Shown one piece after another: positions 5,105 through 35,902 of a DNA stretch of 54,430 nt. The translations under genes and the position numbers were made by a program. The notes under the pieces were generated by a model. It ran no database searches. It was not told where the DNA came from and saw only the letters and a program-made list of their open reading frames with translations. Position 1 is the first letter of the stretch. Each line of letters starts with the position of its first letter. Origin of the DNA: Lentisphaeria bacterium (GTDB lineage: Bacteria > Verrucomicrobiota > Lentisphaeria > Victivallales > Victivallaceae); the NCBI GenBank assembly GCA_017450705.1, contig JAFSTC010000106.1, forward strand, positions 1-54,430, read 5' to 3'.

Positions 5105-5917
5105 TCACACGCTCCGGCCGATATATCCCAGAAGCAGGAGACCCAGATCGAAGAAAACGGCGGCTCCCAGACCGGAAATGCCGTTGCAGAATTTGCGTTC
5201 GTCCTTTTCCCGGCGGCCGCGCAGCGCCATGAGCCCCCAGGGAACGAACAGGAGCAGCTGCCACAGGGCGATCGCAAGAAACATCGGGGTCGTGCCGCCG
5301 GAGGGATCGCGGCTCAGAGTCTCCAGTCCGATCGCCGTTACGAGGAGGAGTCCGCAGGGCGCGGCCGCCGACAGCAGGAGATTGCTGAGGAAGCCCGCGG
5401 ACTTTTTCCGGCAGGTCCCCAGAACCAGTGCGGTCAGGAAGAACAGGGGGAGGAAAAACAGAAAGACCGGCGGGAGCATATTCCGGCAGAGCGTGTCGGG
5501 AAGCGCATCGCAGCGTGACCCGGCCGCGGTCGGGAAGACGTCCCGGCAAAGCGCCGCGCCGAGCGTTGCGCAGAAAAAGAGATGCGTGTGCGCTCCCCAT
5601 ATCGCCGGGCCCTTCGGGATCTGGGAGACGCCGGTTTTGGGGACTCTGAACAGAACCGCCGCGTACGGAGCGAAGCCCGACAGGCTCCACAGGCCATAGA
5701 CCGTCAGGTTCGAAAGGGGTTCCCCGAGACCGAGGTGCGGCAGAAGAAGCGTTCCCGCGCATACCCAAAGAAAAGTTCCGGCGAGGACGACCGAAAACTT
5801 CATGAACCCGGGCAGTTTCCCGCAGTCGGCGGCGGAGATGACTCCCGCCGCTGCCGCGAGGAGACAGACGACCGGCATCAGCAGCGTCAAAACCGCTTCA
5901 CAGAGGAGACTTGTCAT
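5105..5917 (-). CDS. Polytopic membrane protein of unknown function
   Basis: A 270-residue protein made of about seven hydrophobic segments, for example LLMPVVCLLAAAAGVISA near residue 12, VVLAGTFLWVCAGTLLL near 43, VFLFFLPLFFLTALVLG near 155 and a last one near the C-terminus. Loops are short and slightly basic. A central loop contains four Cys and a WGAHTHLFFCA segment. I do not recognise the family. It is transcribed alone toward the panD operon; a plausible promoter lies just upstream. Confidence 0.6.
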   Translation of the reverse strand: MTSLLCEAVLTLLMPVVCLLAAAAGVISAADCGKLPGFMKFSVVLAGTFLWVCAGTLLLPHLGLGEPLSNLTVYGLWSLSGFAPYAAVLFRVPKTGVSQIPKGPAIWGAHTHLFFCATLGAALCRDVFPTAAGSRCDALPDTLCRNMLPPVFLFFLPLFFLTALVLGTCRKKSAGFLSNLLLSAAAPCGLLLVTAIGLETLSRDPSGGTTPMFLAIALWQLLLFVPWGLMALRGRREKDERKFCNGISGLGAAVFFDLGLLLLGYIGRSV

Positions 5918-5954
5918 TTTTTACGAAAACTTCCGAAATCGTTGGTACAAGTAT

Positions 5955-5982
5955 AAGATACTCCATGAGCTCTTTTTTTCAA
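5955..5982 (-). promoter_or_regulatory. Probable promoter of the membrane-protein gene
   Basis: Reading leftward: TTGAAA (5982-5977), 16-bp spacer, TATCTT (5960-5955). An overlapping TATACT a few bases downstream would give a 21-bp spacer, so TATCTT is preferred. The -10 lies 38 bp before the start codon. Confidence 0.45.
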
Positions 5983-5986
5983 GAAC

Positions 5987-6436
5987 TTATTCACTCAAAA
6001 CAAAATATTTTTTTACATCATGAATGAATTTGAAAACGGACAGGAACAAGTCTACTGCCGGACCTTTTTCCGGGCCCAACAATCGACTTCCCAATGGAGT
6101 TGTGTCTTCCTCGGAATTTCCCCATTTGTAGTAAGGAACAACATCAAATAGAACATGTAAAAAGTTATTTGCGACACCTGTCGGCGGGAAGTAATTATAT
6201 GTCCCAATGTTTTCGATATCAGTTACAATTTTTCCATCGGCATTGAAAATAATTTCTTGGCCTGTTTCCGGGTGATGGTATTTTACGTTATTCCTTTGTC
6301 CTTTGTGACGATGATATAGGTTTTGTTCATCCGGGGCTCTGACAAATCCTCTTTTTTCTGCTTCTGCCGGGTTTTTTGGCAAAGCTGATTGATGTTGCAA
6401 AGGATTATTTAGTCTTTCGTAATGTAACTGTTTCAA
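5987..6436 (-). pseudogene. Toxin-like C-terminal fragment separated from its upstream domain by stop codons
   Basis: This 149-codon frame has no ATG start; the first usable start is a TTG. It lies in the same frame as the ORF at 6530-7042, and the two are separated by only two in-frame TAA codons. The product contains ENLYHRHKG-like and NIGTYNYFPP motifs, which I associate with C-terminal domains of polymorphic toxins and Rhs/PAAR effectors, usually within larger proteins. Base composition is much more AT-rich than the genes on either side, pointing to horizontal transfer. It is best read as the C-terminal part of a decayed toxin-like gene; an intact short gene is possible but less likely. 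No immunity gene was recognised beside it. Confidence 0.5.
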
Positions 6437-6529
6437 AAAAAGCTCAATTTTTTGAACGGGAGCATTTAAAAACCACCTGCATTGAATTTGCCTCCCATTC
6501 CTGTTATTTTTATCTTACTGTTCAGAAGG

Positions 6530-7042
6530 TTACTGACTCGCTCTATTTCCAGCATCGCTTTGAGAGCAAGTTGGAGAGAGAATATTTATTGAATGCCTTG
6601 TTTTTTCAACCATTGATGCGGTTTTTTCTTCAATTTCTCTTTGTATGTTTTCAATTTTGGCCGCATAAGAAGCAATTGGGAGGGCCGTCGGGGCCACACC
6701 TGCAGCGTATGTGGTAGAATGCCCTTTGACACTTTCTTCGCACTCTTCAAGCATTTGCATTGAAAGAGTTGCAATTTGGGTGGCGTAACTCTCAAGGCCA
6801 TCTTCCGCCTCATGCACTTTTTTTAGAAAAATTTCTGCTTCATTCTCGGAAAGCTCTTCATATCGGCAACGACAGTTCGGATGGATCGGTAATTCCGGTT
6901 TTTGGGGATCGTCCACAGAAAAAATCTTCCCGTCGTTTGCGAGACACGCTTTGCAACTGTTGGTTCCCTTTTCTGAGATGAATCTGACAAGTCGGACGGT
7001 CGATTCTTTCTCAAGCATTTTAATGGTATCCTCAAAATCCAT
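6530..7042 (-). CDS. Phage head-morphogenesis / polymorphic-toxin-like protein fragment
   Basis: The 170-residue product starts at ATG 7042 behind a GGGAGAG ribosome binding site and an in-frame stop. Residues 28-60 contain SCKACLANDGKIF and LPIHPNCRCRY, the Cys-rich and HPNCRC signature of phage Mu F-like minor head proteins and of related linkers in bacterial toxins. The rest is helical and charged. The AT-rich composition matches the neighbouring fragment and not the host genes. It probably once continued into the 5987-6436 fragment. Whether the truncated product is still made is unknown. Confidence 0.55.
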   Translation of the reverse strand: MDFEDTIKMLEKESTVRLVRFISEKGTNSCKACLANDGKIFSVDDPQKPELPIHPNCRCRYEELSENEAEIFLKKVHEAEDGLESYATQIATLSMQMLEECEESVKGHSTTYAAGVAPTALPIASYAAKIENIQREIEEKTASMVEKTRHSINILSPTCSQSDAGNRASQ

Positions 7043-7440
7043 TTGACTCTCCCTGCTTTAGCGCTTGTTTCCGGAAATATGCCGATCTCACACTGATAAC
7101 CCCGGTTCGTCACCCCCTGAAATTTGGAAACGGGGGAGTTATGCCGGAAACAGTGAACTGAAAAGGGTTGATGCGTGATAAACGGCGGTCGTTTGAGAGC
7201 AAGTTGCTCCACCGGAGAAGGGGACGGCTTCGTCTGCCGTGGAAAAAGTGCGCCATCGAGACGTTCTTGTTCCGCTGCCTGCCCGAGAGAGGAAGAGATC
7301 GTTGCCGCAAAAAGTTCCCGATTTGATTTCGAGGGGACGGGGACTTATATTATGCGCGGAACGGGGCCGGGGCGTGTCGAAATGCAAGGGGCGAGGGGGG
7401 CTTCCCGGCGTTCCTCCCGCAGGAATAAGGAAAATCATTT
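7043..7440. other. Gene-free stretch between the toxin-like islet and the SGNH gene
   Basis: No open frame here is convincing. The first 60 bp keep the AT-rich composition of the islet, then GC content returns to host level. The only recognisable element is the promoter at 7323-7351, which leaves a leader of about 80 nt before the ATG at 7441. Confidence 0.5.
7323..7351 (+). promoter_or_regulatory. Promoter of the SGNH protein gene
   Basis: TTGATT at 7323-7328, 17-bp spacer, TATATT at 7346-7351. It fits the TTGnnn-17-TATATT form seen upstream of most genes here. Confidence 0.65.
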
Positions 7441-14439: not shown

Positions 14440-15582
14440 ATGGCGAAAAAAGTTTTTGTTTCAGGGTGTTACGATCTGCTTCACTCCGGGCACGTCGCCT
14501 TCTTCGAGGAGGCGGCCGCCCACGGCGACCTCTACGTGGGGCTGGGAAGCGACCGTACGATCTTCAACCTCAAGGGGCGGCGTACGGTCAACCCCGAAGC
14601 GGAGCGCCTCTACATGGTCAAGGCGCTTCGGTGCGTCAAGGACGCGTGGATCAATTCGGGAAGCGGCATCATGGACTTCGAAAAGGAGGTCCGCGAACTC
14701 AAGCCCGACATCTTTTTCGTGAATTCCGACGGCTACACGCCGGAGAAGGAAAAGTTCTGCCGGGAACTGGGGATCCGGCTGATCGTCAGCGAGCGGATCC
14801 CCGAGCCGGGGCTGCCCCCGCGCTCGACGACGGCGCTCCGCCAGGAGTGCCGCATCCCCTACCGGGTCGAACTTTGCGGCGGCTGGCTCGATCAGCCCTC
14901 GGTCAATTCGCTTTCTCCCGGTTCGGTGATCGTGATGAGCATCGAGCCGACGATGGAGTTCAACGACCGCAGCGGCATGGCGACGAGTTCCCGCAAGAAG
15001 GCGATCGAGCTGTGGCAGACGCAGATCCCGGCGGGAAACCGCGAGGAACTGGCGAAGCTGATCTTCTGCATCGAAAATCCGCCGGGGACCAGGGCGGTCA
15101 GCGGGTCGCAGGACCAGCTGGGGATCCTGCTGCCCGGCCTCAATAAACTCAATTACGACAACGGTTACTGGCCGAAGTCGATCGATTCCGTGACCGACGA
15201 CAAAACGCTGGACTTCATCGCGGATCACCTCTATCTGCTTCAGCTGCCCCAGCGGCGGACCGGCTACGACGTGCTGGGACGGACTTTCATCACGAAAGAA
15301 CGGGCCGCGCGTCTGGCCGAGGTCACCGATCGGTGCTGGCGGGCGATGCTTGCGGGCGACGTGAAGGAGTGGGGCCGGGCCACGCGGGAGTGTTTCGAGA
15401 TCCAGACGGCGATGTACCCGGCGATGCTGACGGAGGATATGACCGAAGCGATCGCCGCGCGCCGCGATTCCGTCTGCGGCTGGAAGGTCACGGGGTGCGG
15501 CGGCGGAGGCTATCTGGTGCTGATCTCCGAAACGCCCGTCGACAATACGATCAAGGTCGTCCCCTGCCGGGCGAACAACTGA
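14440..15582 (+). CDS. Cytidylyltransferase-GHMP kinase fusion protein
   Basis: The 380-residue protein joins two domains. Residues 1-135 are an HxGH nucleotidyltransferase: [18 protein letters not shown] with His15 and His18, then [18 protein letters not shown]. Residues 145-375 look like a GHMP sugar kinase: [15 protein letters not shown] at the start, a [13 protein letters not shown] segment in place of the usual GGxGSSSA loop, and [16 protein letters not shown] as the C-terminal glycine motif. The order suggests one protein that phosphorylates a sugar at C1 and then activates it with a nucleotide, as in heptose or fucose salvage. It directly precedes gmd and fcl. I recall similar proteins in Bacteroidota, but the substrate is not known to me. 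Confidence 0.7.
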
Positions 15583-15596
15583 AAGGATATCCATTC

Positions 15597-16649
15597 ATGA
15601 AACGGGCACTTATCACCGGGATCACGGGCCAGGACGGCTCCTATCTTACCGAACTCCTGCTGGAGAAGGGCTACGAGGTCCACGGCATCATCCGCCGGGC
15701 GAGCACCTTCAACACCGGGCGCATCGACCATCTCTACCGCGATCCGCATCTCGAGGGCGTGAAGCTCTTCCTCCACTACGGGGATCTCACCGACTCCAGC
15801 AACCTGAGCCGGCTGCTGGAGAAGGTCCATCCGCAGGAGATCTACAACCTCGGCGCCCAAAGCCACGTGCGCGTCTCCTTCGACGTGCCGGAATACACCG
15901 CCGACACCGATGCGCTCGGCGTGCTGCGGCTCCTCGATGCGATCAAGGAGACCGGGCTGGATACCCGCTTCTATCAGGCGTCGACCTCGGAGCTTTTCGG
16001 CAAGGTGCAGGAAGTGCCCCAGCGGGAAACGACTCCCTTCTGGCCGCGCAGTCCCTACGGCGTCGCCAAACTCTACGGCTTCTGGATCGTCAAGAACTAC
16101 CGCGAGGCCTACGGGCTCCACGCCTCGAACGGCATCCTCTTCAACCACGAATCGCCGCGGCGCGGCGAAACCTTCGTGACCCGCAAGATCACGATGGCTG
16201 CGGCGCGGATCCACCGCGGACTGCAGGATTGTCTCTACATGGGCAATCTGGATGCGCTCCGCGACTGGGGCTACGCCAAAGACTATGTCCGCATGATGTG
16301 GATGATGCTCCAGCAGGAAAAGCCCGACGACTACGTGGTGGCGACCGGCGAAATGCATTCGGTGCGGGAATTCATCGAGTGTTCGTTCGCGCATCTCGGT
16401 CACAAGATCGAGTGGCGCGGGAAGGGGGTCGACGAAGTCGGCATCGACACGTCGACCGGCAAGACGGTCGTCCGGATCGATCCGCGTTACTTCCGGCCCT
16501 CCGAGGTGGAGCAGCTGCTCGGCGATCCGAGCAAGGCGGCGCGGCAGCTGGGCTGGGTGCCGGAGGTCAAGTTCGCCGAGCTGGTGAAGATCATGACCGA
16601 CGGAGATCTGCGTCTGCTGGACAATCCCAATTACGAGATCGGATTCTGA
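15597..16649 (+). CDS. gmd: GDP-mannose 4,6-dehydratase
   Basis: The 350-residue protein starts [20 protein letters not shown], the NAD(P)-binding glycine motif of Gmd. It carries [17 protein letters not shown], the GDP-mannose-specific loop, the Thr/Ser-Glu pair in QASTSELFG, and the catalytic Tyr-x3-Lys in [10 protein letters not shown]. It converts GDP-D-mannose to GDP-4-keto-6-deoxymannose. The start at 15597 follows GAAAGGAT; an upstream open extension is translation of the previous gene in another frame. fcl follows after 4 bp. Confidence 0.95.
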
Positions 16650-16653
16650 TGAA

Positions 16654-17634
16654 ATGATCGACAAAAACGCAAAAATCTTCATCTGCGGCCACCGCGGCAT
16701 GGTGGGGAGCGCCTGCGTCCGCAAGTTCGAACGCGAGGGCTACGCCAATATCCTCAAGCGGACCCATGCGGAACTGGACCTCAGAGATCAGGCGGCCGTG
16801 AAGGCCTTCTTCGCGGCGGAGAAACCGGAATATGTGATCCTTGCGGGCGCGAAGGTGGGCGGCATCATGGCCAACAAGACCCACTGCGCGGAGTTTCTGC
16901 TTGAAAATCTGGAGATCCAGAACAACGTCATCATGCAGAGCTACCTCAACGGGGTAAAGAAATTCTGTTTTCTCGGGAGCTCGTGCATCTACCCCTGTCA
17001 GGCGCCCCAGCCGATCAAGGAGGAATACCTTCTCACCGGACCCCTTGAACCGACCAACGAAGGGTATGCGCTGGCCAAGATCAGCGGCTACAAACTCTGT
17101 CTCTACCTCTCCCGGCAGTACGGCTGGAACACGGTGAGTCTGATGCCCTGCAATCTTTACGGGACCAACGACAGCTACGATCCGCAGAACAGTCACGTTT
17201 TCCCGGCTTTCGTCCGGCGTTTCGTCGAGGCGGCGCGGGAAAAGCGTCCGGAGGAGGTCCTGTGGGGAACGGGCAAGCCGCTGCGGGAATTCCTGCACGT
17301 GGACGACGTGGCGAACGCGGTGTACTACTTCATGCAGAACCATGACGATCCCGAGGTGATCAACATCGGCTACGGCACGGACATCACGATCCGCGAGCTT
17401 GCGGAGAAGATCGCCGCCGCGGCGGGTTTCGAGGGCGAGATCAAATGGGACGCCTCCAAACCCGACGGCATGTACCGCAAGCTGATGGACAGCTCCCGCG
17501 CCCACGCTCTCGGCTGGAAGCCGCAGATCACGCTGGACGAGGGGATCCGCCGCACCGTGGACGAGTTCCGCCGCGGCAACGGGAAAAATCTCGGGAAACG
17601 GGATCCCTCTCCCGAAGTTCCCGCCAAAAAATGA
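16654..17634 (+). CDS. fcl: GDP-L-fucose synthase
   Basis: The 326-residue protein has KIFICGHRGMVGSACVRKF (NADP-binding), AAKVGGIMANKTH-like text characteristic of Fcl/WcaG, FLGSSCIYP, and the YALAKISGYK catalytic Tyr-x3-Lys. It carries out the epimerisation and reduction that give GDP-L-fucose, the donor for the GT11 fucosyltransferase at 32679. The last 20 residues are a charged tail beyond the usual family end. It closes the first part of the locus. Confidence 0.95.
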   Translation: MIDKNAKIFICGHRGMVGSACVRKFEREGYANILKRTHAELDLRDQAAVKAFFAAEKPEYVILAGAKVGGIMANKTHCAEFLLENLEIQNNVIMQSYLNGVKKFCFLGSSCIYPCQAPQPIKEEYLLTGPLEPTNEGYALAKISGYKLCLYLSRQYGWNTVSLMPCNLYGTNDSYDPQNSHVFPAFVRRFVEAAREKRPEEVLWGTGKPLREFLHVDDVANAVYYFMQNHDDPEVINIGYGTDITIRELAEKIAAAAGFEGEIKWDASKPDGMYRKLMDSSRAHALGWKPQITLDEGIRRTVDEFRRGNGKNLGKRDPSPEVPAKK

Positions 17635-22888: not shown

Positions 22889-23920
22889 ATGACCATCCCC
22901 GTCCAAAAACGCTGCATCATCATTGCCGAGGCCGGCGTCAACCACAACGGCGATCTGGAAATGGCGAAACAGCTGATCAAAGTCGCGGCGGAAGCCGGTG
23001 CCGATTATGTGAAATTCCAGACGTTTTCCGCGGACAAACTTGTGACGAAGACCGCAAAACAGGCGGCATACCAGAAAAAGAATCTTCAGAGCGGCGATGA
23101 CGACAGCCAGTACACCATGCTGAAAAAGCTGGAGCTGAGCCGGGAAGCCCATGAGGTGCTGGTGAAGACCTGCGCGTATTACGGGATCAATTTTCTCTCC
23201 ACCGCGTTCGACAACGAGAACCTCGTGTACCTCGCAAAAGATCTGGACCTGGATTTCATCAAGATCCCCTCCGGCGAACTCACGAATTACCCCTATCTGC
23301 GGCTGGCCGCCCAACTGAACAAGCCGATCATACTCTCCACCGGCATGGCGACGCTGCAGGAGATCCTGGACAGCGTGAAGCTCCTGGAAGATTTCGGCGT
23401 GAAGAAAGAGGGCCTCTACATTCTCCACTGCACCACGGAGTATCCCGCCCTGATTTCGGAAGTCAATCTGAAGGCCATGGATGTCATTGCCGAAGCGACC
23501 GGCTGTCAGGTCGGTTACTCCGACCACACGATGGGCATCGACGTTTCCGTGGCCGCCGCGGCCCGGGGCGCCGTCGTCATAGAGAAACACTTCACCCTCG
23601 ATCGGAGTCTGCCCGGTCCGGACCATCCGGCCTCCCTCGAACCGGACGAATTGAAGAAGATGGTCATCGCCATCCGCAATGTCCAGCGAGCCATCGGCGA
23701 CGGCCTCAAACAGCCGGCCAGCGCCCGGGAACGGGGCAACCGGGACGTGGCCCGAAAAAGCATCGTCGCGGCCTGTCCCATCAAAGCGGGGGAGATCTTC
23801 ACCGAAGAAAATCTCGCCACCAAGCGTCCCGGTACGGGGATATCTCCCATGAAGTGGCCCGAAGTCATCGGCCGGAAAGCCAAGCGCGATTTTATGGAAA
23901 ATGACTTGATCGAATTGTAA
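22889..23920 (+). CDS. neuB: NeuB-family sialic/legionaminic acid synthase
   Basis: The 343-residue protein has CIIIAEAGVNHNGDLEMAKQLI, YVKFQTFSADKLV, STAFDNENLVYL, IKIPSGELTNYP and GYSDHTMGIDVSVAA, all NeuB signatures, then a C-terminal antifreeze-like SAF domain (about 285-343). The enzyme condenses phosphoenolpyruvate with an N-acyl-mannosamine or a 2,4-diamino-6-deoxy analogue. The sequence alone does not separate Neu5Ac synthase from legionaminate or pseudaminate synthase. The matching epimerase (NeuC/LegG) is not in the window. Confidence 0.9.
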   Translation: MTIPVQKRCIIIAEAGVNHNGDLEMAKQLIKVAAEAGADYVKFQTFSADKLVTKTAKQAAYQKKNLQSGDDDSQYTMLKKLELSREAHEVLVKTCAYYGINFLSTAFDNENLVYLAKDLDLDFIKIPSGELTNYPYLRLAAQLNKPIILSTGMATLQEILDSVKLLEDFGVKKEGLYILHCTTEYPALISEVNLKAMDVIAEATGCQVGYSDHTMGIDVSVAAAARGAVVIEKHFTLDRSLPGPDHPASLEPDELKKMVIAIRNVQRAIGDGLKQPASARERGNRDVARKSIVAACPIKAGEIFTEENLATKRPGTGISPMKWPEVIGRKAKRDFMENDLIEL

Positions 23921-23932
23921 GGAGATGATGCC

Positions 23933-24625
23933 ATGAACGAAAAAAACATACAGGCATGGATCTTCGTTCGCGGAGATTCCCTGGGACTTCCCGGGAAAAA
24001 TCTCCGCCCGCTCCTCGGGAAACCGCTGATCGCCTACACCGTCGAAGCGGCCCGGAAATCCCGTTTTATCAAAGACGTTTTCGTTTCCACAGACAGTCCC
24101 ACCGTGGCGGCCACGGCGGAACAGTTCGGCGCGATCGTCCCCTTCCTGCGCCCCGCGGAACTCTCCGTTTTCGGTTCCCCGGTCCGCAACGCATGGGTCC
24201 ACGCCATCGAGTGGAACCGTCAGCAGAGCGAATTCCCCAAAATGGACATCATGGTCGCGCTGCCGGTGACGACGCCCCTGCGCACGCCGTCGGAGATCGA
24301 TCAGGCCATCGAACTCTACCTGCAGGGGGAGTGTGACACGGTGACCGCCGTCGTCAGAAGCAATCAGCATCCCGCCCGGAACATGGTTTATCTGGATGGA
24401 AACGGCTATGCGTCCCTCTGTCAGGACAAGGAAGAGGAGCGTCCCGCTTACGACATCAGCAGTCTGATCCGCGTTTCGGGCACGGACTACATCCTGCGGG
24501 AGCAGGATTATCTGAAGGGCAGAGTCAAAACCGTGGAAGTCCCCCGCGAACATGGGTTGGACATCAAGACCATCTGGGACTTCAAGCTGGCGGAGATCAT
24601 TTTGAGCGAAGGGGAAGCAAAGTGA
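23933..24625 (+). CDS. Acylneuraminate cytidylyltransferase homologue with altered active-site motif
   Basis: The 230-residue protein aligns with CMP-sialate synthetases: AWIFVRGDSLGLPGKNLRPL near the start, KDVFVSTDSPTVA, and MVALPVTTPLRTPSEIDQAI. In the nucleotide-binding motif the usual RGGSKG is RGDSLG: Asp15 for Gly and Leu17 for the conserved Lys. The gene just downstream keeps the canonical form. It may use another sugar acid, another nucleotide, or act as a non-catalytic partner. AAGGAGATG precedes the ATG, and it overlaps the next gene by 4 bp. Confidence 0.75.
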   Translation: MNEKNIQAWIFVRGDSLGLPGKNLRPLLGKPLIAYTVEAARKSRFIKDVFVSTDSPTVAATAEQFGAIVPFLRPAELSVFGSPVRNAWVHAIEWNRQQSEFPKMDIMVALPVTTPLRTPSEIDQAIELYLQGECDTVTAVVRSNQHPARNMVYLDGNGYASLCQDKEEERPAYDISSLIRVSGTDYILREQDYLKGRVKTVEVPREHGLDIKTIWDFKLAEIILSEGEAK

Positions 24626-25326
24626 AATATCTGGCGGTCATCACGGCCCGGTCGGGCTCGAAGGGGCTGAGGGACAAAAACATCCTTCCCCTGGGCGGCA
24701 TCCCCCTCTCGGCCTGGACGATACGGGCGGCCCTGGAGTCCGGGGTGTTCGACGAGGTGCATTTCTCCACAGATTCCGAAAAATATGCCGCGATCGCCCG
24801 GGAGTACGGGGCCTCGGTGCCTTTTCTGCGCGATGCCGAGCTGGCGACCGACGGCGCCGACACCTGGGACGTCGTAAAGGCGACCATCGGCAAATATCGG
24901 GCCGCGGGCAAGAATTTCGACGCCTTTATGCTGCTTCAGCCTACCGTACCGTTCCGCAATGCGGATGATATTCGCGAGGCGGTGAGGATGCTGGAGGAGA
25001 AGAATGCCAAGGCCGTCGTTTCGGTGACCGAGCCGGAGCATTCCCCGTTCTGGTGCGCCGAACTTCCGCCCGACGGCGACATGCGCGTCTACCATGAGAA
25101 AATACAGTATCTGATCGGCCGCCAGAAGCTGCCGCAGCAGTGGATCCTCAACGGTGCGATCTATCTCGTCAGGGTGGATCATCTGCTGAACGCGCGATCC
25201 ATTTACGAGAGCGGATGTTACGCCTACAAGATGCCGAGGGAGCGCTCCTTCGACATCGATGATCGGCTTGATTTCGATATCTGCGAATTTCTGGCGACGA
25301 AGCGTCAGCCGGACCGGCATGATTGA
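24622..25326 (+). CDS. CMP-sialic acid synthetase (acylneuraminate cytidylyltransferase)
   Basis: The 234-residue protein starts at a GTG overlapping the previous stop (GTGA). It has the canonical VITARSGSKGLRDKNILPLGG motif (Arg10, Lys14, Lys19), VHFSTDSEKYAAIA, and FMLLQPTVPFRNADDI. It activates a nonulosonic acid as its CMP derivative for transfer. NeuA is usually single; the tandem copy next to it is unusual. Families are shared between Neu, Leg and Pse pathways, so the sugar cannot be named. Confidence 0.85.
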   Translation: MKYLAVITARSGSKGLRDKNILPLGGIPLSAWTIRAALESGVFDEVHFSTDSEKYAAIAREYGASVPFLRDAELATDGADTWDVVKATIGKYRAAGKNFDAFMLLQPTVPFRNADDIREAVRMLEEKNAKAVVSVTEPEHSPFWCAELPPDGDMRVYHEKIQYLIGRQKLPQQWILNGAIYLVRVDHLLNARSIYESGCYAYKMPRERSFDIDDRLDFDICEFLATKRQPDRHD

Positions 25327-27259: not shown

Positions 27260-27964
27260 ATGCGCGTCCTTTTCGTCACCGATTCCCTTGGAGCGCCTCG
27301 TCCGGCGGTGCCGTGGGAGTTCACCTTCCCGGCCCTGCTCCGGCGCAGATTTGCCGGCCGGGAAGACATATTTTTCTGCCGTGAAAGCAGAAGAGGCAGC
27401 ACGACGGCCTGTCTGCGCGATCCGGAACTGCTGCCGTCCTATCTCCCGGATGTCGTCATCGTCCAGCTTGGCATCGTCGATTGTGTGCCGCGGATATTCA
27501 CGAAGCTGGAAAGCGCCCTTCTGGCCCGTCTCCCGGAGCGGATCCGGAACATACTCATCCGGCTGGGAAAACACGTCAGAAAACGTTCCGAAAGACGTGC
27601 CTACGTGAAACCCGATGCGTGCCGGCGGAACTGGCAGGCCTTTCTGGATCAGGCCGATGAAATGGACTGCCGCGTCCTGGTCATTCCCGTGGCATTGCCG
27701 GGAAAGGTTTTTTCAGCGGACAATCCCGGCGCCGAAAAATCGATCCGGCAGTACAATGAGTCGGTCGGGTGTCTCGCGGCGGGATCGCCCCGCGCCGCGG
27801 TTCTGCCGAGTTGGGACAGGGAGGAGGAGTCGTACGATGATCTCTTTCTTCCCGATGACGGATATCACCTGTCGAAGCGCGGGCACGAACGAATGGCCGG
27901 AGCTCTGTACCCGATCCTCGAGGAGGAGCTCCGCGAAAAAGACCGATCTCAGTCGAAACTATGA
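27260..27964 (+). CDS. SGNH-hydrolase-like protein of the glycan locus
   Basis: The 234-residue protein opens VLFVTDSLGAPRPAVPW with the SGNH Ser in DSLG, continues PDVVIVQLGIVDCVPR as the block III equivalent, and ends DDGYHLSKRGHERMA with the Asp-x-x-His pair. It has no signal peptide. SGNH enzymes in polysaccharide loci add or remove O-acetyl groups. A direct role on the sialic-like sugar is an inference from position. The stop overlaps the next start by 4 bp. Confidence 0.7.
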   Translation: MRVLFVTDSLGAPRPAVPWEFTFPALLRRRFAGREDIFFCRESRRGSTTACLRDPELLPSYLPDVVIVQLGIVDCVPRIFTKLESALLARLPERIRNILIRLGKHVRKRSERRAYVKPDACRRNWQAFLDQADEMDCRVLVIPVALPGKVFSADNPGAEKSIRQYNESVGCLAAGSPRAAVLPSWDREEESYDDLFLPDDGYHLSKRGHERMAGALYPILEEELREKDRSQSKL

Positions 27965-29415
27965 TGACCGCAGTCAAAACTTTTTTTCAAAACAAGATCC
28001 TCCTCTATGTCATGTCCCGGTACGTGACCATGGGGCTGCAGTTCCTGTCGTCCATCTACATCGCCAAGCGTCTCGGGCCCCACCACTGGGGCGAGTGGAG
28101 CTTCATGGTCCTGCTCATCAACATCGGGACGACGCTGGACTGGGGCATCGCCAATTCGATCAACATCCTCCTGACCCAGCACCTCAAGGAGCCGCGCAAA
28201 AATGCCGTTTTCTGCTATAACGCGCTGATCCTCTCACTGTTCATCATGATCCCGGTCGTGCTGGTCACTTTCTACGACCGCATTTTCGGCATCCGGTATT
28301 TTTCGAAGTTCGATCTCGGCGGCAAAATTTATCTGATCCTGCTGATCATCTGCGTCAATTACCTCAACAGCCTCTTCGTGAATATCTCGCGGGTCAGGAA
28401 CAGGATCCTCCCGATCGCGATCTCCCAGTCGTCGGTGGCCGTCGTTTCCTGCGTGCTGATGTTCTTCGCCGTGAGCGGTAAACTGCTGACGCTGCTGATC
28501 TGGGGATACGCATTCGCGGTCCTGTTTTCCCTGGGCGTCTTCCTGACCAAACGGGATATCGACTGGTCCGTCAAGTTCGACTGGACGACGGCGGGAACGA
28601 TCGCCCGGAAGGGGATATTTCTGTTCTGCTACAACGGCAGTTTCGCGCTCATCGCGATGTCCACGAAGACCATCATCAGCTACTTTTACCCCGTGAAGAA
28701 CTTCGGCTTCTTTTCTTTCGCCTTCAGCCTGGCGAATGCGACCATGCTGCTGGTGAACAGCCTGATATTCATTGCGACCCCCCGCATGATCAAAATGCTG
28801 GACGGTGACGACAAGTCGCTGAACATGCGTAATATAGAACTGTTGAGACGCTGTTATCTCCTCTGCATCAATGCGATCGTCTATCTGTCGATCCCGTGCT
28901 ATCTGCTGGTGCTGCTGCTGGTTCCCAAATATCAGCCCTCCACAAGAAGCTTCATCATGATCGAGATCGCCCTCTCCATGTACCCCGTCTGCTACGGTTA
29001 CAACACCTTTCTGCTCGCGCACAACCGGGAGAAGAACATGGCGTCGATGGTGGGCATCGCCCTTCTGATCAACGTGGCCGCGACCTGGTTCCTGGCGGCC
29101 GTTCTCCGCGTGCAGATGGAGTATTGCGCCATCGGCATCGCGTTTTCCTATCTCGCCAATTCCGTGATGACGAATCTGTTCGCCGCCCGGGTCCTGGGGA
29201 CGCCGATGGACGGAAAGACGGTCTTGAGATTCATCCCCCTGTATTCCCTCGTCCCCCTTGTGATCACCCTGTACATCGTTTATGCCGACAGGACCGGCGT
29301 CTGGTGGATGCTTCTGCCCTTCGCCGTGTTCTGCCTTTTCGGCATGAAAGATCTGCTCGCCATCAAACCGCTGCTCGTCAAACTGATAAAAAAACCGGAA
29401 ATAATAAACGTCTGA
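27961..29415 (+). CDS. Wzx-like polysaccharide flippase (MOP superfamily)
   Basis: The 484-residue protein contains 12-14 hydrophobic helices spread along its length, with YIAKRLGPHHWGEWSFMVLL near the start, the family's typical first-helix loop. NIEL-type loops and a second MATE-like half follow (LLINVAATWFLAAVL, AIGIAFSYLANSVMTNL). It would flip undecaprenyl-linked repeat units across the inner membrane. Two ATG codons lie in tandem at 27961/27964, overlapping the previous stop. Confidence 0.83.
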   Translation: MMTAVKTFFQNKILLYVMSRYVTMGLQFLSSIYIAKRLGPHHWGEWSFMVLLINIGTTLDWGIANSINILLTQHLKEPRKNAVFCYNALILSLFIMIPVVLVTFYDRIFGIRYFSKFDLGGKIYLILLIICVNYLNSLFVNISRVRNRILPIAISQSSVAVVSCVLMFFAVSGKLLTLLIWGYAFAVLFSLGVFLTKRDIDWSVKFDWTTAGTIARKGIFLFCYNGSFALIAMSTKTIISYFYPVKNFGFFSFAFSLANATMLLVNSLIFIATPRMIKMLDGDDKSLNMRNIELLRRCYLLCINAIVYLSIPCYLLVLLLVPKYQPSTRSFIMIEIALSMYPVCYGYNTFLLAHNREKNMASMVGIALLINVAATWFLAAVLRVQMEYCAIGIAFSYLANSVMTNLFAARVLGTPMDGKTVLRFIPLYSLVPLVITLYIVYADRTGVWWMLLPFAVFCLFGMKDLLAIKPLLVKLIKKPEIINV

Positions 29416-29419
29416 TAAA

Positions 29420-30487
29420 ATGCTGAACCATCTCGTCAACAAATTTCTTTACGATTGTTCGAAGTACAACGGACTCGCGGAGGAGATCCGCACCGACTGC
29501 GGAGACCGCAGGATCGTCGTCGCCAGATGCACGAAACCTTTCCAGTACGTGAATCTGATGAACATTCCGCTGCCGGAGTCCTCTTACAGGATTTTGTGCG
29601 TCGGTCACTCCTTCGCCGGGTCCGAGGCCTTCGTCGAAACGCTCAGGGAGCACGACATGGGAACGTGGGACCGCATCCTCGATTTCAAAAGAAGCGAGGA
29701 TATTTTCCTTTTCTTCCTCGCGTTGAAGAAGATCGACTTCCTGTTCACCGAGATCGACTACGGGCTTCGGCTCGCCTTTCCCATGCGGGAGGTCAAAGAA
29801 CGGGGCTGCGAGATCGGCTGTTACGAAGAAGGCGCCAGCATGTACTGCAACGGAGAGGAGTTCGTGTTGTCGCTTTGCCATCCCGCCGTTTACAGAAGAC
29901 CGCTCCTCCGCGCCGCGTACAGGACGGCCCGCAGGCTGACATTGCGCCTTCTTGGATCGGGAACGTGGTACGGCAGAAGCAAATGGACCTCGTACATCTA
30001 TTCCTATTATCCCCACGCGCCGTCGCTGGACGACTGCGCCGGCAAGTGCCGCCCGTTCACGTACTCTCTCATGGAACAGATCGGGCGCCTCTCCCATCTG
30101 TTCCCCCTGGAGCGGGAGTATCCGGAGATCGCCGCGCTGCGGGGCCTGAACGTTCTGATCGTCGCCATCGGGTGGAACGGCGAAGTCAAGCTCAAGGATG
30201 ACGATCTGCAAAAGTATGACCGCATCATCGTCAAACAGCATCCCCATATCGTCGGTTCCGCGAAGAATTCCGGTTCCGACCGCGTTCTGTATATGTACGG
30301 CTACATACCCACCGAGTTTCTTGCAAGCCGTCTGCTGCGCAACGGCAACCGGACGACCCTGCGGTCCGAGATGTCCGCGAGTCTGCTCTATCTGATGGGC
30401 ACGCCGGTCGATTGCGAATTCTACGATGCTCCGCCGGCGACATTCAAAGATATGATTGCCTATTTGGAACGCGAAAAGAAGAATTGA
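29420..30487 (+). CDS. Putative sialyltransferase-like glycosyltransferase
   Basis: The 355-residue protein has no transmembrane helix. It carries two short motifs shared by bacterial sialyltransferase families (GT38, GT52, GT80): Glu136-Glu137-Gly138 in GCYEEGASMY and His274-Pro275 in IIVKQHPHIVG. An RTTLRSEMSASLL stretch near residue 310 may be the third Ser/Thr motif. The layout of two Rossmann-like halves (VAIGWNGEVKL opens the second) fits GT-B. With NeuB and CMP-sialate synthetases upstream it is the natural candidate to transfer the nonulosonic acid. Overall similarity to a named family could not be tested. Confidence 0.55.
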   Translation: MLNHLVNKFLYDCSKYNGLAEEIRTDCGDRRIVVARCTKPFQYVNLMNIPLPESSYRILCVGHSFAGSEAFVETLREHDMGTWDRILDFKRSEDIFLFFLALKKIDFLFTEIDYGLRLAFPMREVKERGCEIGCYEEGASMYCNGEEFVLSLCHPAVYRRPLLRAAYRTARRLTLRLLGSGTWYGRSKWTSYIYSYYPHAPSLDDCAGKCRPFTYSLMEQIGRLSHLFPLEREYPEIAALRGLNVLIVAIGWNGEVKLKDDDLQKYDRIIVKQHPHIVGSAKNSGSDRVLYMYGYIPTEFLASRLLRNGNRTTLRSEMSASLLYLMGTPVDCEFYDAPPATFKDMIAYLEREKKN

Positions 30488-30488
30488 C

Positions 30489-31754
30489 ATGATGCAAACG
30501 ATCACGAAGGATACTTCCCCCGCGGAGAAGAAACACGGGATGCCCTTTGCCATTGTGCTGATCGCGACCCTTCTGTTCCCCCCTGTCATATCCGTGATCT
30601 TTCTCATCGGCAGGGGGTTGAAGCAGCGACGGATCACCGCCGGCCTGCAGCTGCTGCTTCCCTTCACGATCGCCACCGTGCTGATTTTCTGCTCTCCCCT
30701 CTGGGACGCCATCGCCCACTACTATCGCTATATCCACTGGCAGAACCATGAGCTCGTGAATGAATTTTCCCTGTTCAGCCGGGACTGGTTTTACCGCCTG
30801 GAGCTTTCGCTGCCTCAGTTCCTGGACCGGGATGTTCCTTATGTTTATGTTCTGTTCTGCCTTTATTTCCTGATCGTGTTCCTCTGGCTCCTGATCGCCC
30901 GGAGGACCGCGCCGGAGACCGGGCTGATCCCCTTCCTGCTGATCTTTTCCGCGACCGGCCCCTTTCCCCTTTTGGGGTATACCCGGGGCGCACTGGCGTT
31001 CACGCTGCTGCTCCTGCCGGCCGTTTGGAAAAAAACGTCTGCTGTCCTGTTGTCGGCGCCGCTGGCCTTTCTCGTCGCCGTCAACATACACGACTGCACT
31101 TTGCCGATCGTTCCGGCCCTGCTCCTGTACATCGTGCTGGTCCTTTATCCCGGCGTGGTGACCGGATACACTTTCTCCGCGGTTCTTCTCGTCGTTGTCG
31201 CCCTGTTCTGGCAATGGAGCACGTTTTTTTCCAGTGTGGTTTCCGAGGAGCGCCTCGAGATGTACAACCAGGTCTCAGGGCGTTTCCTGCACGGCAGCGA
31301 TTACATATACGTCACGCTCGCCGTGCTCTGCGTCGTCTTTTTCCTCATCACCGTGTTCAGGCACAAAGACCGGATCGAAAACAAATACCTTCTGGCCATA
31401 TTCATCACCACGGCCATGTTTTTTCTCGCGTCGTTGTGTGTCGGACAGTATACGGTGCGGGAAAGATTTCAGTTCATGGCCCTGATATCCGGATCACTGG
31501 TGACGGCCCCCGTTCTGGGGAAGACACTCTCCCCCGAGGGCAAAAACATGTTCCGGACGGTCATGTGCGTCACCTTTGCGATGCAGCTGCTCATTGTCGC
31601 CAAACCGGCCTTCATCAACCCGTTGTTTTACGATCAGGAAGGGTGCAGAAAGATCGTTCTGCGGATGTTCTACCTGCCGACGGGCCTGTTGGTTTCTGAG
31701 GCTTCTTCTCTGGGGTTCGGAAATGAATTGTTCGAAACGTCGACCTGGGATTGA
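30489..31754 (+). CDS. Wzy/EpsG-like O-antigen polymerase candidate
   Basis: The 421-residue protein has about ten to eleven hydrophobic helices with one larger loop around residues 70-115 (NEFSLFSRDWFYRLELSLPQ) and a second near 270. That pattern is common in Wzy/EpsG polymerases, which are too divergent for residue-level assignment. It starts at ATG 30489, one base after the preceding stop; the upstream open extension is rejected. Position between flippase and glycosyltransferases supports the role. Confidence 0.6.
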   Translation: MMQTITKDTSPAEKKHGMPFAIVLIATLLFPPVISVIFLIGRGLKQRRITAGLQLLLPFTIATVLIFCSPLWDAIAHYYRYIHWQNHELVNEFSLFSRDWFYRLELSLPQFLDRDVPYVYVLFCLYFLIVFLWLLIARRTAPETGLIPFLLIFSATGPFPLLGYTRGALAFTLLLLPAVWKKTSAVLLSAPLAFLVAVNIHDCTLPIVPALLLYIVLVLYPGVVTGYTFSAVLLVVVALFWQWSTFFSSVVSEERLEMYNQVSGRFLHGSDYIYVTLAVLCVVFFLITVFRHKDRIENKYLLAIFITTAMFFLASLCVGQYTVRERFQFMALISGSLVTAPVLGKTLSPEGKNMFRTVMCVTFAMQLLIVAKPAFINPLFYDQEGCRKIVLRMFYLPTGLLVSEASSLGFGNELFETSTWD

Positions 31755-31856: not shown

Positions 31857-32642
31857 ATGACGATCGGTTTTCTGTACATCGCAACCGGAAAATACATGTA
31901 TTTCTGGAAGGACTTCTTCCTGTCGTGCGAGAAATTTTTTATCCCGGAAGCCCGAAAGCACTATTTCATATTCACCGACGACACGACGATGAGGTCCGAC
32001 GACAATATCACGATCATACCGCGTCAGTGCGCCGGGTTCCCCGCGGATTCGCTTTTCCGGTTCGAGATGTTTCTTTCGATCAGGGAGCTTCTCCAGAAAC
32101 AGGATTATGTGTTTTTCCTCAACGCGAATATGCAGATCGTCGATGCCGTCGGCGAGGAGATCCTGCCGACCGCCGAAAACGGTTTCCTCGTCGGGGTCCT
32201 GCATCCCGCCGAAGCCCGCAAACGTCCCCCGTGGAGCTTCCCGTACGAACGGTCTCCCCGCTCTCTGGCATACATCCCGCCCAACGATCCCCCCTACAAT
32301 TATTTTACCGGCGCAATCAACGGCGGCCGCACACCGGAGTTTCTGGCCATGTCGCAGCTGCTCGCGGACAACATCCGCAAGGATTATGACAAAGGCATCA
32401 TCGCCAGATTTCATGACGAATCGCACCTCAACCGTTTCTTCCATTCCCATCATCCGCTGACGATGGACTGCCGCTACTGTGCGCCGGAAGGGTGGGACGT
32501 CATCCAAAATCCCAAAATAATGATGAGAGACAAGGTGAAGGTCAGCGAATACTTCAGGAAACAGCGCGACGGTCTGGTCCCGCACATGCTCAAGGGAGCC
32601 AGATGCGTGTTCGACGGGATCAGGTGGTATTTGCATGTTTGA
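31857..32642 (+). CDS. GT6 family (ABO/alpha-1,3-GalNAc or Gal) glycosyltransferase
   Basis: The 261-residue soluble protein is a bacterial member of CAZy family GT6, the family of human blood-group A and B transferases. RFEMFLSIRELL and YVFFLNANMQIVD lead to Asn89-Ala90-Asn91, where animal enzymes carry the metal-binding Asp-x-Asp; NYFTGAINGG (149-158) matches the acceptor/donor loop; FHDESHLNRFF holds Glu188, the conserved catalytic-region Glu. The NxN form is the one described for metal-independent bacterial GT6 enzymes. It should transfer alpha-GalNAc or alpha-Gal to a fucosylated galactose acceptor. It precedes the alpha-1,2-fucosyltransferase gene. An AGGAG box precedes the ATG. Confidence 0.88.
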   Translation: MTIGFLYIATGKYMYFWKDFFLSCEKFFIPEARKHYFIFTDDTTMRSDDNITIIPRQCAGFPADSLFRFEMFLSIRELLQKQDYVFFLNANMQIVDAVGEEILPTAENGFLVGVLHPAEARKRPPWSFPYERSPRSLAYIPPNDPPYNYFTGAINGGRTPEFLAMSQLLADNIRKDYDKGIIARFHDESHLNRFFHSHHPLTMDCRYCAPEGWDVIQNPKIMMRDKVKVSEYFRKQRDGLVPHMLKGARCVFDGIRWYLHV

Positions 32643-32678
32643 TCTTACACGGTTCTTTGAGTTTGTTGCGGAGAAGAA

Positions 32679-33557
32679 ATGAAAATAGTGAAAATCATCG
32701 GCGGACTGGGCAATCAGATGTTCCAGTACGCTCTCGTGCTCGCCCTGAAAGAACGCTTTCCCGACGAGGTGGTCAAGGTCGACACGACGCTCTTCTGCAA
32801 CTACAGGAGGCACAACGGACTTGAATTGGAGCGGATATTCGGGATCGCATTGGATACCGCCTCCGCTGCCGAAATCAATCAGGTCAGCCGCTGCTTCACG
32901 AACTATTTTCTGCAGCGTCTCTGGCGCAAGATCTTCGGATGCGGCCGGCATGAGATCGTCCAGCGCCACGACGGCGAATTCCTTCCGGATGTTTTCCAGG
33001 CAGGGAAAGATCTGTACTACGAAGGCTACTGGCAAAATCAGGATTATTTTTCGGAGATCGCCGACCGGGTGCGTTCGGTTTATCGTTTCCCCGATTTTAC
33101 GGATGACCGCAATCGTGAAGCGTATCGGGACATTACCGAAGCGGGCAATTCCGTTTGCATCCACGTGCGGCGAGGGGATTATCTGGCTTCCCCGATGTAC
33201 AGGGGCATCTGTGACGAACACTACTACGCGGAAGCGGTAAAAATGATTTGCCGCAGGTATGAAGCTCCCCGTTTTTACATTTTTTCCGACGATCAGGATT
33301 GGTGCCGAAGCTTTTTCCCGACTCTCTGTTCGCCGAATGGAGATATCACGTTCGTCGATTGGAACTCCGGGCAGAACTCTTTCCGTGATATGCAGTTGAT
33401 GAGCGCCGCCGCCTGCATGGTCATCGCCAACAGTTCGTTCAGCTGGTGGGCGGCGTGGCTGAATGCCCGTCCCGGCAAAGTCGTGATCGCGCCCAGACGA
33501 TGGCTGAACAACGCGCCCGAAAACGATCGTCAGCTCCCAAGTTGGGAACTGGTCTGA
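32679..33557 (+). CDS. GT11 alpha-1,2-fucosyltransferase
   Basis: The 292-residue protein starts KIVKIIGGLGNQMFQYALVLAL, the N-terminal motif of GT11 (FUT1/FUT2 type), and has SVCIHVRRGDYL with His162 and the HxRRxDY GDP-fucose motif. DMQLMSAAACMVIANSSFSWWAAWL is the C-terminal conserved block. It transfers fucose from GDP-L-fucose, supplied by gmd/fcl in this locus, to galactose to give an H-type Fuc-alpha-1,2-Gal unit, the acceptor needed by GT6. GGAG lies upstream of the ATG. Confidence 0.93.
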   Translation: MKIVKIIGGLGNQMFQYALVLALKERFPDEVVKVDTTLFCNYRRHNGLELERIFGIALDTASAAEINQVSRCFTNYFLQRLWRKIFGCGRHEIVQRHDGEFLPDVFQAGKDLYYEGYWQNQDYFSEIADRVRSVYRFPDFTDDRNREAYRDITEAGNSVCIHVRRGDYLASPMYRGICDEHYYAEAVKMICRRYEAPRFYIFSDDQDWCRSFFPTLCSPNGDITFVDWNSGQNSFRDMQLMSAAACMVIANSSFSWWAAWLNARPGKVVIAPRRWLNNAPENDRQLPSWELV

Positions 33558-33635: not shown

Positions 33636-34466
33636 ATGACCGACAGAGCTTCCCCCGGCCGTTGGAACGGCAGGAGCTGCCAACGGATATCCGAAATGTC
33701 AGAAAAGATGTTTTCCGCGCGTATGCTGTCCGAGGCTCCGTGGATCGTCTTCGGGGCGGCCATGATCGCGAACGGAGTCGCCATGTTCCTGAACGACGGC
33801 GTGTGCCGCGATTCGGTGTATTACTGCAACTTGGTGGGCAATTGGCAGAAATACGATGACATCATGCTTCTCAGTCCTAGCGCGTGGAGTGCGACGGCCG
33901 TTCCGCCCCTGTACCTGTGGCTGATCAAGACCCTGTCCCGGTTCGCGGGATATGATTTTCTGACGGCCGGCCGCATATTGAATTATTTCTTCGGGGCCCT
34001 GACCCCCGTGTTTTTCTACAGGACCCTGCGGATATCGGGGGTAAAAGCGTTCCTCGCCTTTTTGTCTTCGCTGGTGCTGGCCTGTCATCCCGCCATGGTC
34101 GATACCTGCGTTATCGTCACGCGCGACTGTCTGTACCGTTTTTTGGTTGTGCTGGCGGCTTTTTTTATTGTGAAGGGCGTTCGGCAGGCAAACCAGTGGG
34201 CATTCTGCGCATCCGGGATGGTCGTCGCGCTGGCACTGCTCACCCGTTATGAGGCGGCGGAATTCCTGTTGCTTCCGGTTCTTTTCTTCATCCCGCATTT
34301 CACGAAGAACGTCACATGGAAGCTGTGCGGCCGACAGATCGCGTTGTTTTTCTGCAGCGCGGCGGCCGCTTTTTGGGCGGCCGGCTGTCTCATGGGGTTT
34401 CACGCGGCTTATTGGGCGGGGTTCCTGCACCGCTATCTCGTCAGGGCGAAGGACTTGTTGTCATGA
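33636..34466 (+). CDS. N-terminal part of a split GT-C glycosyltransferase
   Basis: The 276-residue product has six or so hydrophobic helices with a first periplasmic loop containing LNDGVCRDSVYYCNL, where the acidic residue (Asp) sits as in GT39/PMT/ArnT-type enzymes. RTLRISGVKAFLAFLSSL and CHPAMVDTCVIVTRDCLYRF are the family's cytoplasmic/helix-3 region. It stops after LVRAKDLLS, and the next gene begins in the overlapping ATGA with more membrane helices. A GAGGAAAAA box precedes the ATG. GT-C enzymes use lipid-linked sugars in the periplasm. Confidence 0.65.
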   Translation: MTDRASPGRWNGRSCQRISEMSEKMFSARMLSEAPWIVFGAAMIANGVAMFLNDGVCRDSVYYCNLVGNWQKYDDIMLLSPSAWSATAVPPLYLWLIKTLSRFAGYDFLTAGRILNYFFGALTPVFFYRTLRISGVKAFLAFLSSLVLACHPAMVDTCVIVTRDCLYRFLVVLAAFFIVKGVRQANQWAFCASGMVVALALLTRYEAAEFLLLPVLFFIPHFTKNVTWKLCGRQIALFFCSAAAAFWAAGCLMGFHAAYWAGFLHRYLVRAKDLLS

Positions 34467-35902
34467 TTCTTTCCCTCAGGGCTATCGTACTTGAATTGAC
34501 CCCTCCCGTGCTGGCTGCGGCACTGGCAGGTGTCTTTTTTCTGCTGTTCCGTCGACAGAAGCTGACTCTCCCGCTCCGGGCGCTGTCGCTTTTCTTCTTC
34601 GTCTGTCTGCTGTGGCGCCTGGGGGCCCCGTTGATCTCACGGCGTTATGCGGGGGTTCTGCTGTTCCCGGCGGTGGTTTTGGGCTGCTATGCGCTTCTGA
34701 GCATCAGGGATCAACTCCTGCGATGGCGGTTCTTCGATAACATTTTCTGGAAGAGAGCGTTTTGCGTTTTTCTCTTCGCCGCCCCCCTGGGGTTGCTGCT
34801 CAAAAGCTGGCACTTCAATCCCTATGCCGATGGGTTGAAGGAGATCTGTGCCGTCGCCCGGACTGACGCAGCCCGCCGTCCGCATGCTTCCACATTTCTG
34901 GATTTTACGCGCAATTCGGACCGCATAAGCTTTTTTTCCAAACTTCCGATCGATCACTGGCAGCGGGAGATCATCGGCAAAAACGCTCCGGAGAAACAAA
35001 TCTCGGGATTTCGCCGGGCCCTGCGGCGTTCGATCGGTTCCAATTCGACGGTATACGTTTTCATGAAAAAGTCCTCGGGCGATCCCGACCTGTTCCCGGA
35101 GGATGCGGCGGTTTCCCGATGGGGATCGGAAAAACTTGCCGAGCGCTATGTCAACCGGAAAAGAAAACACAAATGGGTGCTCTACCGTTTCACTCCCAAA
35201 AACGGGATTTCCAGTCGCGGTATCCCTGCTCCGCCAACTCCTGGAAGCCGGTCCGGGAAAAACTTTTTGATGAATGGCGACTTCGAGAAGACAGAGACAT
35301 TGGAAAAACAGAAAAAAGCCTGCGAACGTTATGTAGCGGGTCGGTCTCTGTTCTTCGCCGATCGGAACAAGCTGATCCCCCAGCGGATAAGTATTTCACA
35401 TCTGCCGGGCGGCGAACTGGGGGCCGATGCCGAAATCGAAGCCTGTTCCGCGGAGCCTCTCGCCGGAGCCTTTTCGCTGCGCATGAAAAGTGAATCGACG
35501 ATATTCGCCTGTATCGCCCAGGATATCCCGAGTGAAAGTTACCGGCTGTCTTTTTGGCTGAAGAGCCGGCGTCCCAGTTTGCTGAATCTCTATGCGGTCC
35601 CCTTCTCGCCGTGGGCCGGTGACATGTTCAGGATCGCGACGATCTCCGTCCTTCCGGGAGAGACGCGGGAGTATACCCTCGACATTTCCCGTGATCTGGT
35701 AAAGCATTGCCATCATTTTCGTCTGGTGTTCGGATTGGATTTCGGAGAGGTTTTGATAGATAACGTCGAATTGCACAAAAGCAGTTCCGGCACAGCGTTC
35801 TCCCGAACCGCGGTCCTCCGGCCGGACGCCTGCAAAGCCGTCCGGCAGAAACTTCTGGCGGGTCGGAATCGAGCGGACGGTCTGCCGCAGAACGCATTTT
35901 GA
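34463..35902 (+). CDS. C-terminal part of the split GT-C enzyme with a carbohydrate-binding-like tail
   Basis: From ATG 34463 the product has 479 residues: four hydrophobic helices in the first 120 (PPVLAAALAGVFFLLF, ALSLFFFVCLLW, LLFPAVVLGCYALLS, AFCVFLFAAPLGLLL), a soluble middle, then from about residue 268 a domain that opens MNGDFEKTE and closes FGEVLIDNVELH. That opening and closing are typical of CBM4/9-type beta-sandwiches. It overlaps the N-terminal gene by 4 bp. Together the two would give a normal-size GT-C protein with a periplasmic sugar-binding domain. A larger open extension upstream is a wrong-frame reading of the first gene. Confidence 0.6.
   Translation: MILSLRAIVLELTPPVLAAALAGVFFLLFRRQKLTLPLRALSLFFFVCLLWRLGAPLISRRYAGVLLFPAVVLGCYALLSIRDQLLRWRFFDNIFWKRAFCVFLFAAPLGLLLKSWHFNPYADGLKEICAVARTDAARRPHASTFLDFTRNSDRISFFSKLPIDHWQREIIGKNAPEKQISGFRRALRRSIGSNSTVYVFMKKSSGDPDLFPEDAAVSRWGSEKLAERYVNRKRKHKWVLYRFTPKNGISSRGIPAPPTPGSRSGKNFLMNGDFEKTETLEKQKKACERYVAGRSLFFADRNKLIPQRISISHLPGGELGADAEIEACSAEPLAGAFSLRMKSESTIFACIAQDIPSESYRLSFWLKSRRPSLLNLYAVPFSPWAGDMFRIATISVLPGETREYTLDISRDLVKHCHHFRLVFGLDFGEVLIDNVELHKSSSGTAFSRTAVLRPDACKAVRQKLLAGRNRADGLPQNAF

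Follow-up and report, generated by a model that had tools for sequence, protein, structure and literature searches.

Whether a bacterium of the class Lentisphaeria could display the blood-group A or B sugars of its host is the question raised by two adjacent glycosyltransferase genes in the 54,430-nucleotide stretch of DNA analysed here (the window), which the initial annotation read, with gmd and fcl of the same locus, as a complete set for an H-type structure, Fuc-alpha-1,2-Gal, capped by alpha-Gal or alpha-GalNAc. In GTDB the Lentisphaeria belong to the phylum Verrucomicrobiota, which also holds Akkermansia. Our results favour, with a probability of roughly 0.6, a Wzx/Wzy-type surface-polysaccharide locus with a transferable blood-group-type cassette that makes an A- or B-type trisaccharide and was gained from Bacteroidales-type bacteria. 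The two genes and their motifs are the following:

31857..32642, + strand: GT6 glycosyltransferase, BoGT6a/WbnI-like, 261 aa (PF03414 and NF041524 over the cut-off; AlphaFold model)
32121..32129, + strand: NAN (NXN) motif, residues 89-91, replacing the metal-binding DXD (alignment with BoGT6a and WbnI)
32307..32315, + strand: donor-site triad Thr151-Gly152-Ala153, corresponding to human ABO 266-268 (alignment)
32412..32423, + strand: HDES, with the catalytic Glu188 equivalent to Glu192 of BoGT6a (alignment)
32679..33557, + strand: GT11, alpha-1,2-fucosyltransferase type, 292 aa (PF01531; 31% to WbiQ of E. coli O127 and 28% to the O86 enzyme)
33162..33179, + strand: HVRRGD (HxRRxD) motif of GT11, residues 162-167 (sequence and alignment)

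The product of the first gene was confirmed as a GT6 enzyme of the ABO type, with profiles, motifs and fold in agreement. In Pfam, Glyco_transf_6 (PF03414) matched it with an E-value of 6.7e-30 and 104 bits, and the NCBIfam GT6 subfamily model NF041524 scored 281.5 bits, over a cut-off of 250. Alignment found the NXN motif and the catalytic residues intact, among them the counterpart of Glu192, which has a catalytic role in BoGT6a (PMC3961637), and placed Arg68, Tyr13 and Lys226 at positions that bind UDP-GalNAc in that enzyme. With NAN in place of DXD the protein is, judged by its sequence, of the bacterial metal-independent type. The AlphaFold model, with an input of 34 homologues, reached a pLDDT of 94.2, and among solved structures its closest matches were those of BoGT6a (Z 32.8, rmsd 1.5 A, 229 residues), with the human A/B transferase structures, GTA/GTB, next at a Z of about 28. 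The GT6 profile and a GT-A fold like that of the ABO transferases are both present in this product.

BoGT6a of Bacteroides ovatus (PDB 4ayj, 4cj8; the Z of 32.8 is for 4ayj) forms an A-type product from 2'-fucosyllactose (PMC3961637) and shares with the window enzyme its fold, 39-41% identity, the NAN motif, the catalytic Glu and the conserved Lys. It differs in its triad, AGG, and in Trp66, Asn69 and Thr70 of the uracil site, which are Phe, Asp and Ser in the window, where there is also one extra residue before the donor site and another C-terminal tail. Apart from the triad, these differences are common to an uncharacterised subclade of Bacteroidales enzymes (Prevotella, Paludibacteraceae and Sphingobacterium; L013-L035 and others) and are not damage. 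The subclade has the same F-D-S uracil site and the extra residue before the triad, most of its members carry a YFxKGRD-like tail, and their loci have GT11 downstream and, in several cases, EpsG upstream. Unlike the window, where position 266 of ABO is occupied by Thr, all sampled members have Met (one has His) at this position; the window moreover belongs to another phylum, and in several subclade loci GT6 is separated from GT11 by a Wzx or an acyltransferase. The GGHxxLR tail found in most bacterial GT6s is missing from the window enzyme, and a frameshift was considered as the cause and rejected, since the whole subclade has another tail and WbnI is active without the motif too.

With regard to the sugar transferred, the TGA triad matches no characterised enzyme compared and falls between the Gal types (MGA, QGC) and the GalNAc types (LGG, AGG): WbnI (Gal) has QGC, the Bacteroidales subclade MGG, MGS or HGG, and the human A and B enzymes LGG and MGA, with Gly as the middle residue of both. 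The human cisAB mutant L266G/G268A was among the structures matched by the model, and TGA resembles this dual-donor pair, which together with the non-bulky Thr at 266 would suit a GalNAc cap. Such an A-type cap, as in BoGT6a or Helicobacter mustelae, is a variant of our reading that we consider a serious possibility, although at somewhat under even odds. In its favour, the closest solved relative, BoGT6a, uses UDP-GalNAc (PMC3961637). Against it, residues 266 and 268 are Leu/Gly in the human A and Met/Ala in the human B enzyme (PMC4202792); A-type enzymes carry Gly at 268, whereas the window has Ala there, a non-Gly residue as in the Gal donors human B and WbnI, and most of the subclade shares the Met at 266 of human B. 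The Ala at 268 thus leans, weakly, to Gal.

The second gene was found, as annotated initially, directly after the first on the same + strand with 36 bases between them, and its product matched Glyco_transf_11 (PF01531) in Pfam with an E-value of 1.4e-32 and 113 bits. HxRRxD is the described motif of GT11 (PMC4202792). The family is not exclusively alpha-1,2, since its member HhFT2 is an alpha-1,3-fucosyltransferase (PMC4202792). Both genes are preceded by a Shine-Dalgarno-like AGGAG/GGAG and the GC3 of the pair is near the locus average. In all 4 Mb of the genome GT6 and GT11 each occur just once, next to each other, and chance adjacency is therefore very unlikely.

The pair lies in a cluster with further genes of polysaccharide synthesis:

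15594..16649, + strand: gmd, GDP-mannose 4,6-dehydratase (PF16363, GDP_Man_Dehyd, E 1.3e-156, 521.7 bits)
16654..17634, + strand: fcl, GDP-L-fucose synthase, epimerase family (Epimerase, PF01370, E 8.7e-59)
22889..23920, + strand: NeuB-type nonulosonate synthase (TIGR03569, 470.6 bits, over the cut-off)
23933-24625 and 24622-25326, + strand: two CMP-nonulosonate-synthetase-like genes (PseF-like, below the cut-off; CTP_transf_3 for the second)
27961..29415, + strand: Wzx-type flippase (PF01943, 29.2 bits, cut-off 28.2)
29420..30487, + strand: orphan 355-aa protein, candidate nonulosonyltransferase for the NeuB-derived sugar (EEG and HP motifs)
30489..31754, + strand: EpsG/Wzy-type polymerase, directly upstream of GT6 (PF14897, 32.1 bits, cut-off 30.1)

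The GDP-L-fucose genes attributed to this locus were found at 15594-17634 with the profile matches listed, fcl showing 77-52% to full-length fcl-like genes of the same taxonomic order. The GDP-fucose genes, GT11, GT6, the flippase and the polymerase all fall within one cluster, and galE is present as well. No beta-galactosyltransferase for the acceptor was recognisable among the locus proteins scanned, which leaves one orphan and one split GT39-like gene. The orphan at 29420-30487 had no Pfam or PDB match, nor did 288 genomes of the phylum yield a relative; its single-sequence model, with a pLDDT of 35, was of no use, and its EEG and HP motifs are those described for bacterial sialyltransferases (PMC4202792). 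Together with NeuB and the CMP-nonulosonate-synthetase-like genes it suggests, as a lead, that a nonulosonic acid may be part of the same polysaccharide. The GT39-like membrane transferase seems to be divided between two frames that overlap (33636-34466 and 34316-35902), through a frameshift, an assembly error or the presence of two genes. Just before gmd, 14440-15582 combines a cytidylyltransferase-like N-terminal domain with a stretch weakly similar to fucokinase/GDP-fucose pyrophosphorylase.

Pairs of this kind had been thought rare in bacteria, a view that is ruled out by our counts in bacterial loci, phage contigs and genomes of the phylum. GT6 was the sole criterion in choosing 80 bacterial and 80 viral loci, of which 62 and 66, respectively, had a GT11, fusions counted, and in most of the bacterial loci it was the next or second gene. 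Downstream of the bacterial GT6 it was next in 32/78 and second in 15/72, while at more than five genes from GT6 a single GT11 was seen in several hundred slots. When loci were made non-redundant by clustering at 60% identity, GT11 lay within two genes of GT6 or was fused to it in 39 of 51 (positional p 2e-15). In the phylum of the window, where 72 of 388 genomes are GT11-positive overall, all 12 GT6-positive genomes carry GT11 within 2.2 kb; the association has a p of 8e-10 by genome and 0.007 by genus, ten of the 12 being from one genus. There are exceptions: among 16 GT6-bearing genomes with no GT11 close by, it is encoded elsewhere in ten and missing altogether from six; Paenibacillus is among the GT6 genomes without any GT11. 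The coupling across phyla is the best in-silico argument in support of GT6 acting on the GT11 product. A literature search on Lentisphaerae and blood-group terms returned nothing relevant, which is weak evidence of absence.

GT11 and GT6 are fused in one frame in two contigs (L064 3774-5363, L085 2008-3738) with opposite domain orders, one contig being from Gastranaerophilales and the other labelled Kuenenia. Four Prevotella-type loci (L025 at 5404-7416, L026, L027 and L028; Pfam on L025 only) have GT6 fused to a Wzx-type flippase in one frame of ~670-680 aa. In the Akkermansia loci (L004-L010, and L090 of A. muciniphila) a ~790-aa protein ends in a GT6 domain that has NGT for NXN, and a second large protein contains a GT11 domain 1.6 kb away. 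As in the window, GT6 adjoins GT11 in cyanophage and marine phage genes, at times with gmd and fcl; unlike the window enzyme, most phage GT6s retain the metal-type DXD, and the phage enzymes form a clade of their own. Loci with the pair in marine phages include L098, L102, L109, L136, L143, L151, L157 and L160, and Synechococcus phage S-8S56 (L202 3686-5217), and the marine phages with GT6, GT11, gmd and fcl have nearly all that a pathway to a fucosylated ABH-type glycan requires.

E. coli O86 provides the proven precedent, and the window pair is a further case of an already known system. The blood-group B epitope is present on the O86:B7 antigen, which adsorbs anti-B (PMC4982269). In O86 clusters from RefSeq, wzx, wbnI and wzy are followed by a glycosyltransferase and then an alpha-1,2-fucosyltransferase; in both records examined (L195, L196) the annotation gives the wzy polymerase gene a frameshift. 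Both systems are Wzx/Wzy-type clusters with a GT6 (NAN, no GGHxxLR tail) and a GT11 in one locus, and WbnI is 35% identical to the window GT6. They differ in the triad, QGC against TGA, in wzy and one transferase separating the O86 genes that are directly adjacent in the window, and in the nonulosonate genes, which are absent from the O86 stretch examined.

By analogy, the window locus would work like that of E. coli O86. Gmd and Fcl, as shown by family, make GDP-L-fucose, from which GT11 would add fucose, most likely alpha-1,2, to the beta-galactose of a lipid-linked repeat unit to give an H-type acceptor. The metal-independent GT6 would then add alpha-Gal or alpha-GalNAc, 1,3-linked, to the same galactose and give a B- or A-type trisaccharide, and the unit would be flipped by Wzx and polymerised by the EpsG-type protein. 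Of the original proposal, the gene identities, the supply of GDP-fucose and the capping of an H-type acceptor by GT6 are supported by sequence, fold, cross-phylum coupling and the O86 system, whereas the donor is not readable from the sequence and the beta-galactose transferase was not identified in the locus. We infer that the organism may display host A or B epitopes.

GT6 and GT11 were both absent from 59 relatives searched, 33 of them of the same genus, and argH on the window contig is 93% identical to that of a same-genus genome; the contig is therefore native and the pair an addition. Contamination of the bin was rejected on this argH identity and on the GC3 of the pair, which matches the locus. 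The GT6 tree puts the window in a clade of 28 rows, fully supported by SH-aLRT, in which every other member of named origin is from Bacteroidota, and also inside a 10-row starred Bacteroidales set, with a long end branch (0.86). The window GT11 groups with the GT11s of those same GT6 loci (support 92, not starred), and GT6 and GT11 tree distances correlate in the clade (Mantel r 0.44, 0/2000 permutations), with a contribution from shared species history. In six Bacteroidales loci of the sample a polymerase immediately precedes GT6, as it does in the window, and is recognised as EpsG by Pfam in five (L014, L016, L018, L022, L025) and by sequence resemblance in the sixth (L029); phmmer found no similarity between the window EpsG and those of the Bacteroidales loci, which have only family and position in common with it. 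The EpsG-GT6-GT11 order common to both supports a block transfer, and comparison of these genomes indicates that the pair, probably with the polymerase position, was likely acquired by horizontal transfer from gut Bacteroidales-type bacteria.

The two enzymes could also share a repeat unit without building an ABH structure, if the fucose were in another linkage or on another sugar and GT6 capped an unfucosylated acceptor. This would agree with the alpha-1,3 activity of HhFT2 (PMC4202792), with GT6 members such as alpha3GT that use unfucosylated galactose (PMC3961637), with Paenibacillus and some other GT6 genomes having no GT11 at all, and with the missing beta-galactosyltransferase. However, the tight coupling in many phyla and phages, fusions included, is best explained by one enzyme using the product of the other, and the characterised close bacterial relatives, BoGT6a and WbnI, both use fucosyl-galactose (PMC3961637, PMC4202792), and we regard this alternative as unlikely. 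That the pair is non-functional in this organism, decayed or silent since its transfer, seems very improbable: although the GT6 end branch is long, the donor triad singular and the downstream GT39-like gene split, both frames are open with intact catalytic motifs and ribosome-binding sites, GC3 is near the locus average, and the GT6 model has a confidence of 94 with the BoGT6a fold.

Our preferred reading is still that of an A- or B-type trisaccharide made by a cassette of Bacteroidales origin. A broader one, which we put forward tentatively and consider rather doubtful, takes GT6-GT11 for a portable ABH cassette, passed on as one unit among phyla and phages. It would be present here in a Bacteroidales version whose uracil site and C-terminal lid are as yet unassayed, and would make a cap that is B-like or of another specificity, on a polysaccharide with a nonulosonic acid in addition. 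If this were true, a bacterium of the Verrucomicrobiota lineage would wear a double host-like coat. A/B/H-like glycans of bacteria are relevant to how natural anti-A and anti-B antibodies arise and to viruses with an affinity for such sugars, and the wide and tight GT6-GT11 coupling is a genome signature by which organisms of this kind may be found. The survey also names a whole unassayed subclade of GT6 enzymes, whose donor preference a simple assay could settle.
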